A DNA stretch of 52,500 nucleotides from assembly GCA_035624455.1 (NCBI GenBank), contig DASPRM010000121.1, positions 1 through 52,500 of the forward strand, in the 5' to 3' direction. Shown piece after piece: positions 616 to 2,237 of this stretch. How positions within the stretch are numbered: the stretch's first letter is position 1; each line of letters starts with the position of its first letter. The notes beneath the pieces were generated by a model. That model was not told the origin of the DNA, made no database searches, and saw only the letters and a program-made list of their open reading frames with translations. Origin of the DNA: Terriglobales bacterium. GTDB lineage: Bacteria > Acidobacteriota > Terriglobia > Terriglobales > Acidobacteriaceae. The position numbers were made by a program, and so were the translations under genes.

Positions 616-676
616 ATAACTTTCCCGAAGCGCCGTAACCTTTCTTTGGCTCGGCAGTTTACCTGAATGAGAGAGG

Positions 677-1240
677 ATGATGGCGGCCGGCAAATCTGCA
701 CCGACGATCTCCCGCGGAGAAGCTGAGGAGCGCCTTCTTGTGGAGGCCGCGCAGAAGGATCCGACCCGTTTTGCCGAGCTCTATGAAGACAATTTTGAAC
801 GGGTTTATGCCTTCATTCGGCGGCGTGTCCGCCAGCGTGAGGTTGCGGAAGACCTTACGGCAGATGTGTTCCACAAAGCGCTGGTGCATCTTCCCAAGTT
901 TGACTGGCGAGGCATTCCGTTTTCGGCATGGTTGCTGAGGATTGCTTCTAATGTGATTGTCGATGAATGGAAGCGCTCCCGCCGTGAGGTGGTGGAAGAC
1001 CCTCCCGAGCAGGCAGGCGGCGAAGTCGATGTGGAGGAGTTAGAGAACCGTGCCCGCCTCTTTCGCCTGGTGGAGCAGCTCCCGTCTGATCAGGGGCGTG
1101 TAATCGCAATGCGCTTCGCCGATCAGAAAAGCATTCGTGAAATTGCTCACGAAATTGGACGCAGCGAAGGGGCAGTGAAACAGCTGCAATTTCGCGGGCT
1201 GAAGATGTTGCGCACTCTGTGGGGTAGCAAGCATGGCTAA
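677..1240 (+). CDS. ECF-type RNA polymerase sigma factor
   Basis: A 187-residue sigma-70 family factor. Region 2 runs from about residue 30 to 100 (LYEDNFERVYAFIRRR, then EDLTADVFHKAL and the FSAWLLRIASNVIVDEWKR stretch), and region 4 is near residues 125-180, with the helix-turn-helix KSIREIAHEIGRSEGAVKQL. The size and the absence of regions 1 and 3 fit the extracytoplasmic-function group, which redirects RNA polymerase to a small set of promoters. The last 8 bases overlap the next gene, so the two are almost certainly co-translated and the downstream product is the natural candidate for its partner. GAGAGAGG lies very close to the start, so ATG 677 or ATG 680 are both possible. Confidence 0.93.
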   Translation: MMAAGKSAPTISRGEAEERLLVEAAQKDPTRFAELYEDNFERVYAFIRRRVRQREVAEDLTADVFHKALVHLPKFDWRGIPFSAWLLRIASNVIVDEWKRSRREVVEDPPEQAGGEVDVEELENRARLFRLVEQLPSDQGRVIAMRFADQKSIREIAHEIGRSEGAVKQLQFRGLKMLRTLWGSKHG

Positions 1241-2237
1241 GCGACCCTTGTCGGAACAACTCGATGAGCTGGTACAGGCGATGCTGGACCGCCCAGATTC
1301 CTCGCCTCCGCAAGTGGACGCCAAGGTAGCTCCGTTGCTGCCAGTGCTGAAGGAGTTGCGAGAGCTGCCACGCCCATCATTCAAAACCCAACTCAAGTCC
1401 GATCTGCAAAGGAGGATTACCATGATGACGCAATCATCGGCTGTAACTGCTGAGGCAAAGCGTACGATCAACCACCTACCCGAAGGTTTCCACACTGTGA
1501 CGCCCTATCTGATAGTGAGCGGGGCAGCGCGACTGATGGATTTCCTGAAGCAAGCTTACGGTGCGCAAGAGAAACTGCGGGTGCCAAAGCCGGACGGCAG
1601 CATCATGCATGCCGAGATGCGGATTGGCGACTCTGCACTCGAGTTGGCGGACGGCAACGAGCAGCATCCGCCACAAGCGGTAGCCTTGCACTTCTATGTG
1701 GAGGATGCTGACGCGGTCTATGAGCGTGCATTGCAGGCGGGAGCTACGTCCTCACACGTGCCCGTGAACCAGGAATATGGCGATCGCGAAGCGTCGGTGA
1801 AGGATCCTTCCGGAAACTCCTGGTATATCGCCACCCATCAGGGGGCTCGCTATATTCCGGAGGGGTTGCATAGCATCACGCCTTACCTGCACCCTCGCGG
1901 AGCGGCAGCGATGATCGACTTCCTGAAGCAAGCGTTCGGAGCGGAAGAGGAAGCCCGCTATCAGAGTCCGGACGGCGTTATTCAGCATGCGAAAGTCAGA
2001 ATTGGCGATTCCGTTATTGAGATGGGCGAGGCGCACGGGGAATATCAGCCCGTGCCAGCTACGCTGCATATGTATGTCCAGGATTGCGATGCCCTCTACG
2101 AACGCGCTCTGGGCGCAGGGGCCAAGTCGCTGATGGCGCCGAAGGACGAACCTTACGGAGATCGCGCCTCCGGAGTGGTGGATCCGTTCGGGAACCGCTG
2201 GTTCATTGCCACGCACATCAAGGATGTGCAGTTCTAG
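1233..2237 (+). CDS. Tandem VOC (glyoxalase-like) protein with an anti-sigma-like N-terminal region
   Basis: 334 residues. Residues about 75-195 and 205-330 are two copies of the same VOC/PhnB-like fold; each starts with an HTVTPYL or HSITPYL motif and ends with a DPSGNSWYIATH or DPFGNRWFIATH motif. VOC domains usually bind metals and small molecules. The first 62 residues are a separate alpha-helical, leucine-rich segment that ends FKTQLKSDLQRR. It resembles short cytoplasmic regulators found next to acidobacterial ECF sigma factors (inference). The gene overlaps the sigma gene by 8 nt. A perfect AAGGAGG at 1409-1415 precedes ATG 1422, so a shorter 271-residue form with only the VOC domains could also be made. 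No catalytic activity can be assigned. Confidence 0.85.
   Translation: MAKRPLSEQLDELVQAMLDRPDSSPPQVDAKVAPLLPVLKELRELPRPSFKTQLKSDLQRRITMMTQSSAVTAEAKRTINHLPEGFHTVTPYLIVSGAARLMDFLKQAYGAQEKLRVPKPDGSIMHAEMRIGDSALELADGNEQHPPQAVALHFYVEDADAVYERALQAGATSSHVPVNQEYGDREASVKDPSGNSWYIATHQGARYIPEGLHSITPYLHPRGAAAMIDFLKQAFGAEEEARYQSPDGVIQHAKVRIGDSVIEMGEAHGEYQPVPATLHMYVQDCDALYERALGAGAKSLMAPKDEPYGDRASGVVDPFGNRWFIATHIKDVQF
1409..1424 (+). promoter_or_regulatory. Internal Shine-Dalgarno and start codon inside the VOC gene
   Basis: AAAGGAGG ends at 1415, six bases before ATG 1422, with a second ATG at 1425. It is the best ribosome-binding site seen near any start in this part of the window, yet lies inside an open frame that begins at 1233. 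It may permit independent synthesis of the VOC domains without the helical N-terminus. The AGG AGG may also simply encode the two arginines there. Confidence 0.5.

Follow-up and report, generated by a model that had tools for sequence, protein, structure and literature searches.

In a soil bacterium of the order Terriglobales, an ECF sigma factor gene overlaps the gene of a protein with a brake-like front and a pair of VOC domains at the rear, an arrangement suggestive of gene control through a soluble chemical sensor. The two genes very likely make up an autoregulated sigma/anti-sigma operon, in which a module of the RsbN kind (class III) is joined to a soluble tandem VOC sensor. The structure and conservation of the operon, the linkage of the module with the sigma factor, the exchange of the sensor part, and the promoter were established computationally. 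We infer that the module binds the sigma factor, that the VOC pair senses a ligand, and that the sigma factor is then released.

Organization of the Operon

The whole stretch of DNA that was analysed (the window) has a length of 52,500 nucleotides. The ECF sigma factor gene is located at 677-1240 on the + strand and codes for a protein of 187 aa with regions 2 and 4 only. The next gene (1233-2237, + strand) codes for a putative soluble anti-sigma factor of 334 aa, which consists of a helical module and tandem VOC domains. It begins with an ATG at 1233, inside the end of the sigma gene and 8 nt before its last nucleotide, and the two reading frames share the sequence ATGGCTAA (1233-1240, + strand). 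The sequence-only reading had put the start of the VOC gene within the last 8 bases of the sigma gene, and both open reading frames were found there. When the start codon nearest to the module was taken, the overlap was exactly 8 nt in 60 of 73 homologous sigma/partner pairs, which rules out an overlap by chance. Conservation of linkage and overlap does not by itself mean that the two proteins bind.

A candidate ECF promoter of the BldN type lies in front of the sigma gene at 634-661 (+ strand). It is composed of CGTAAC (634-639), a 15-nt spacer, and CAGTTTA (655-661), and it also reads as CGTAA-N18-GTT at 634-659. Between the upstream gene (86-562) and this promoter, a GC-rich hairpin followed by a T-run was noticed by eye at 584-616 of the window; a simple terminator scan did not report a terminator at this place.

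The sigma factor was assigned by comparison with Pfam, NCBIfam, and the PDB. In Pfam, it matched PF04542 at residues 35-103 and PF08281 at residues 127-178, both above the cut-off. The best NCBIfam model was TIGR02952 (BldN family) with 120.5 bits; the cut-off of this model is 206.45, and because the score lies below it, we describe the protein as BldN-like and not as BldN. Among solved structures, BldN comes closest (6dxo_A, E 1.5e-20), followed by SigW (6.8e-10).

Structure and Distribution of the N-Terminal Module

Residues 1-66 of the partner protein (1233-1430, + strand) constitute a three-helix module with the motif L..LP...F...L...L, which is a putative class III (RsbN-type) anti-sigma domain. 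A distinct N-terminal segment in front of the tandem VOC domains had been proposed from the sequence, and we can confirm it: residues 1-65 gave no match in Pfam or NCBIfam at E <= 1, and three helices were predicted. In the AlphaFold model of the 334-aa protein, these helices occupy residues 6-19, 33-42, and 48-68 and are followed by a low-confidence linker (67-81) and the two VOC domains. The same three helices were obtained when the module was folded alone (over both models, the third spans 47/48-65/68). The pLDDT of the module was moderate, 51-68 in the full model and 72 alone. A search of the PDB with the model of the 66-residue module gave no significant fold match, and RsbN was absent from the list.

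Two sequence profiles of the module were used, built from 19 and 43 modules, respectively. The genome counts obtained with them are lower bounds, as in most genomes a part of the candidates was scored. Among 299 genomes from the class, the profile of 19 modules found at least 56 places, spread over at least 55 genomes (E <= 2.9e-5), and at least 45 further, weaker ones with E values of up to 0.1. Of 396 genomes from the phylum, at least 8, counting the own genome, gave a match to the profile of 43 modules (E <= 1.4e-7). The same profile detected the module in at least 3 of 95 genomes from the phylum to which a 'Candidatus Rokuibacteriota' genome belongs, this genome being one of the three; binning errors are possible in such genomes. 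Absence of the N-terminal segment from homologues had been named as a finding that would speak against the earlier reading, and the segment is conserved in them.

Linkage of the Module with the Sigma Factor

The module proteins were collected without the sigma factor as a query, and in 75 of 78 cases an ECF sigma gene was located directly upstream. This count leaves out six TonB_C cases that were found by the sigma search. In the first set, 67 of 70 distinct module proteins (E <= 2.1e-6, duplicates dropped) had an adjacent upstream sigma gene, although the frame is broken or cut in two of these sigma genes (L093, L044). All six further module proteins of the phylum and both from the other phylum had one as well. 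The three exceptions are L027 and L034, in which the sigma gene and part of the module were deleted, and L061, which lies at a contig start. As a control, 11 of the 45 weak module places (E 1e-4 to 3e-3) were fetched; a VOC match was absent from all of them, and so was a sigma gene within 1.5 kb (0/11). Co-occurrence with ECF genes had been set as a check on the earlier reading, and these counts bear it out. The pairing of sigma factor and module is not accidental.

An ordinary enzyme operon would be another explanation of this arrangement. The module would then serve a tandem VOC enzyme as a linker or for oligomerisation, without contact to the sigma factor, and the overlap would only couple translation. 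Most VOC domains act as enzymes or binding proteins, and adjacency is not binding. The best-scoring matches listed with the whole protein as the query bear on this explanation; 48 loci were examined, of which 47 are distinct (L002 and L003 are one place). The module and an adjacent sigma gene were present together at 22 of these loci, neither was present at another 22, the module occurred alone at two (sigma gene deleted), and the sigma gene alone at one (decayed). Thus, 22 of the 23 distinct VOC loci without the module are also without an adjacent sigma gene, which speaks against a plain enzyme operon. The module is absent from 23 of the 47 loci, so it was rejected as a general feature of VOC proteins.

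Traces of loss were observed at three loci. In L034/L106 (G044:C11) and L027/L103 (G006:C1), the sigma gene and the first part of the module were deleted, and the VOC part was kept; in G044, a sigma-type promoter is still present before a fused reading frame. L049 (G119:C31) is a decayed system in which a broken sigma frame lies next to what is left of a VOC gene.

Exchange of the C-Terminal Part

The search with the sigma factor in 150 relatives gave 28 full-length matches (E <= 4.4e-46). They were followed by a gap, beyond which one distant match (1.3e-21) and one fragment at a contig end were found. The partners of the 28 sigma factors are of two types: 20 consist of the module and VOC domains, and eight consist of the module, a transmembrane stretch, a glycine-rich part, and TonB_C (L094, L095, L183-L188). 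The TonB_C type was assigned with Pfam in two of the eight, and in the other six by the module match and the same sequence pattern recognized by eye. The presence of the module on a wholly different protein beside the same sigma subfamily is a second point against the enzyme operon. As the module is kept with the sigma factor while the C-terminal part switches from soluble to membrane-spanning, it behaves like an anti-sigma domain.

In a tree of the sigma factors (79 rows), the eight TonB types come out as a single group (SH-aLRT 91) amid the VOC types. Many forks of the tree are open and its outgroup branch is very long, which makes the direction of the exchange probable rather than certain. 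Two-VOC proteins and longer ones, distinguished solely by their length, are intermixed in this tree (14 changes). In genome G055, both partner types occur on contig C3, separated by about 4 kb. Among 71 VOC-type proteins, no 19-residue hydropathy window exceeded 1.48, and on this basis they look soluble; the best windows of two TonB types reached 1.61 and 1.72.

Relation of the Module to RsbN

The profile of 19 modules was compared with 177,635 PDB sequences. The first rank was taken by 6dxo_D, the small chain of the BldN entry, with E 0.071, which is not significant alone; with the larger module alignment, the same chain was at rank 2 (E 0.53). This 91-aa chain is labelled BldN, and we take it to be RsbN, based on the nature of the entry and on the fact that the chain is not sigma-like. 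A second similarity was found in Nonomuraea (L119), where a BldN-like gene is followed by the gene of a protein with DUF5667. The N-terminus of this protein, QLTELRELP....AFKERLRAEL, can be compared with the segment LLPVLKELRELPRPSFKTQLKSDL of the window's module, and both carry the motif L..LRxLP....F+.RL+.EL. When this N-terminus, 2,000 shuffles of it, and 599 control N-termini (2,600 sequences altogether) were scored with the module profile, the Nonomuraea sequence ranked first (E 0.017). With the Nonomuraea protein as the query, 6dxo was not found in the PDB and only the protein itself was found in the plasmid search; since it did not match 6dxo, homology of the two RsbN-type sequences is not established here. 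No match to DUF5667 was obtained in the own genome or in 14 control genomes. Individually these similarities are weak; in combination with the evidence from the sigma factor and its promoter, they favour the RsbN class.

RsbN is described as defining class III of the anti-sigma factors and as membrane-anchored (PMC8103513). In the account of its binding mode, helices 1 and 2 contact sigma region 4 and helix 3 contacts region 2, in a source that swaps the two protein names (PMC7406223).

A zinc anti-sigma factor of the ChrR kind, with VOC domains in place of the cupin, would have the same order of parts, an N-terminal anti-sigma domain followed by a C-terminal domain of the small-molecule type, and would also be soluble (layout of ChrR from PMC6852236). 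The zinc motif HxxxCxxC was searched for in the first 75 residues of the partner proteins and was found in 0 of 73, and the module of the window contains neither Cys nor His. We therefore rejected this identity as highly improbable and kept the assignment to the RsbN class.

Other arrangements of sigma genes were seen on plasmids. At L122 (2408-3718, Thermomicrobium roseum megaplasmid), a 436-aa sigma factor with a long C-terminal extension is annotated. By eye, the extension contains an HxxxCxxC motif and a transmembrane stretch, so the protein is perhaps a sigma factor fused to its own zinc anti-sigma factor. In two Micromonosporaceae plasmids (L120 and L123), a sigma gene like that of the window is directly followed by Lsr2-like and GGDEF-domain genes, apparently as a conserved group.

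Properties of the VOC Part

The Pfam analysis of the 334-aa protein revealed two VOC stretches (PF00903, PF18029). The first VOC domain (residues 89-197; 1497-1823, + strand) is supported by PF00903 and by the predicted fold. The second (about residues 211-328; 1863-2216, + strand) matched PF00903 in two stretches and PF18029 best at residues 223-323, and it is likewise seen in the predicted fold. In Foldseek, the best match of the model was a tandem glyoxalase I from Zea mays (E 4.7e-14, TM 0.56), which fits an enzyme operon. A single-domain match was TioX (E 8.4e-9), which is also the only sequence match of the protein in the PDB at E <= 0.001 (E 0.00031).

In 43 two-VOC proteins, many positions are near-invariant, including His126 (93%) and His252 (91%). 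The metal positions were compared with those of GloA, in an alignment that is unsure at the two middle metal positions. The position of GloA H5 is mostly T in the first VOC domain and Q or T in the second, and that of E122 is mostly Y or F. Since conservation is lacking at two of the four canonical VOC metal positions, metal-dependent catalysis is unlikely, and the VOC part is more likely a binding domain than a metal-dependent enzyme. In an enzyme operon, the RsbN-like motif and the BldN-type promoter would moreover be coincidences, and together with the residues found at H5 and E122 this makes such an operon improbable in our judgement.

For the preferred reading, an anti-sigma module with a VOC sensor, the outcome has two sides. 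The sequence-only reading had proposed an anti-sigma function of the module, and this is supported strongly, if indirectly, by the exchange of the sensor part, the RsbN-like motif, and the BldN-type promoter. Its version with the VOC pair as a metal sensor is disfavoured, as two of the four canonical metal positions have no conserved ligand.

Promoter and Target Genes

Upstream of the sigma genes in homologues, we observed CGTAACCTTT, a spacer of nearly constant length, and CAGTTTA or CGTTTA. A regular expression drawn by eye from these same upstream regions fits 65 of 73 of them; in 100 shuffles the mean was 0.32 and the maximum 3. The eight failures comprise two near misses (L067, L076), one region cut short (L044), and five without such a promoter (L064, L068, L073, L083, L099). 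The published BldN motif is CGTAAN18,19GTT (PMC2375139). It was found upstream of 50 of the 73 sigma genes, with a spacing of 18 in 40 cases and 19 in 10 (shuffled mean 0.49), and other spacings from 10 to 27 gave 0 to 4 matches each. A second CGTAAN18,19GTT is present on the + strand of the window. The sigma factor of the window presumably uses the BldN-type promoter at 634-659.

The strict promoter pattern was then searched in whole genomes. It gave one match in the own genome, at 634-661, and the reversed control also gave one. In 150 relatives, 19 matches were found in 17 genomes, and the reversed control gave 29. As the total is below that of the control, only the position of the matches argues for the promoter: 15 of the 19 are located at operons of this family (13 of the VOC type, one of the TonB type in G031, and one in G044, in which the sigma gene is lost). 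The other four had no sigma, VOC, or module match in a 5-kb stretch, and given the 29 matches of the control they are no more than expected by chance. A relaxed pattern gave two matches in the own genome (the second at G000:C86), compared with six for the control. Accordingly, neither pattern, both learned from the family's own promoters, revealed a wider regulon above the control in the own genome or, for the strict pattern, in the 150 relatives.

These results touch on a further explanation, a self-titrating supply loop. Here the operon would exist for the sake of the VOC domains, which would act in binding, in resistance, or as an enzyme, and the module would do no more than feed back on the sigma factor. 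Ligand-loaded VOC protein would let the sigma factor go and so raise its own production, and the only target of the sigma factor would be its own operon. The single strict match in the own genome, the 15 family matches beside four within chance, and the excess of the control for the relaxed pattern would fit, as would TioX as the only PDB sequence match. A pattern derived from the family's own promoters would, however, miss targets with weaker -10 elements, and the TonB_C type of partner cannot be the same kind of product. We regard such a loop as possible but rather doubtful, and we prefer the reading of the VOC pair as the sensor of an anti-sigma factor.

Proposed Mechanism and Comparison with Known Systems

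In the mechanism that we propose, residues 1-66 of the partner protein would bind the BldN-like sigma factor encoded by the overlapping gene and hold it off RNA polymerase. The tandem VOC pair would serve as a cytoplasmic sensor, the protein being predicted to have no membrane segment. Binding of a small molecule to the VOC pair would change the module or expose it, so that the sigma factor is freed. The freed sigma factor would transcribe its own operon from the CGTAAC-N15-CAGTTTA promoter, and the 8-nt overlap may keep both products in ratio.

The closest known system is BldN/RsbN of Streptomyces (PDB 6DXO). The sigma factor is nearest to BldN among solved structures, the promoter motif is that of BldN, three helices are predicted, and the anti-sigma gene follows the sigma gene. 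The similarity at the sequence level is weak, and in contrast to the membrane-anchored RsbN (PMC8103513), the window protein is apparently soluble and has a VOC C-terminus. It also differs from its Nonomuraea relative, the C-terminus of which is DUF5667.

ChrR from Rhodobacter sphaeroides (ECF11) is also soluble and joins an N-terminal sigma-binding domain to a C-terminal domain of the small-molecule type, which is described as required for the singlet oxygen response (PMC6852236). Unlike the system described here, which has no zinc motif and at least two VOC domains, ChrR has a zinc-binding anti-sigma domain and a cupin. TioX and the two-domain maize glyoxalase I share the VOC fold with the window protein, whose family does not conserve two of the canonical VOC metal positions. 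We know of no anti-sigma module on TioX or on a tandem glyoxalase I.

ECF121 is the BldN group of the ECF sigma factors. In ECF125 and ECF127, the anti-sigma factors are described as soluble, as resembling those of ECF121, and as of unknown mechanism (PMC8999054). We liken them to the present system by description only, and their model members are mycobacterial.

The earlier claim that no system of this type has been described stands in part. RsbN-class domains, soluble two-domain anti-sigma factors such as ChrR, and VOC binding proteins are already known. Their combination in a VOC-type anti-sigma factor was not found in literature searched by title and the start of the abstract, a search with the main ECF classification outside its scope. 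In PMC8999054, soluble ECF anti-sigma factors acting by conformational change are described with a zinc domain and as normally responsive to oxidative stress.

Going beyond the single operon, we suggest, with considerable reservation, a class of one-operon chemostats with a BldN-type sigma factor, an RsbN-type brake, and at least two VOC domains. The sigma factor would do almost nothing except make more VOC protein when the ligand is present, and the brake would be a plug-in, transferred between a sensor inside the cell (VOC) and one that spans the membrane (TonB_C).

Because the promoter is a short, well-defined sequence, it could serve in a reporter for finding the ligand. If the proposed mechanism is true, it would add a soluble, zinc-free ECF anti-sigma factor with a VOC pair as its sensor. 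The RsbN class would, by inference, extend from actinobacteria to Acidobacteriota and one more phylum, and the family would offer a natural series of sensor swaps on a single brake module.
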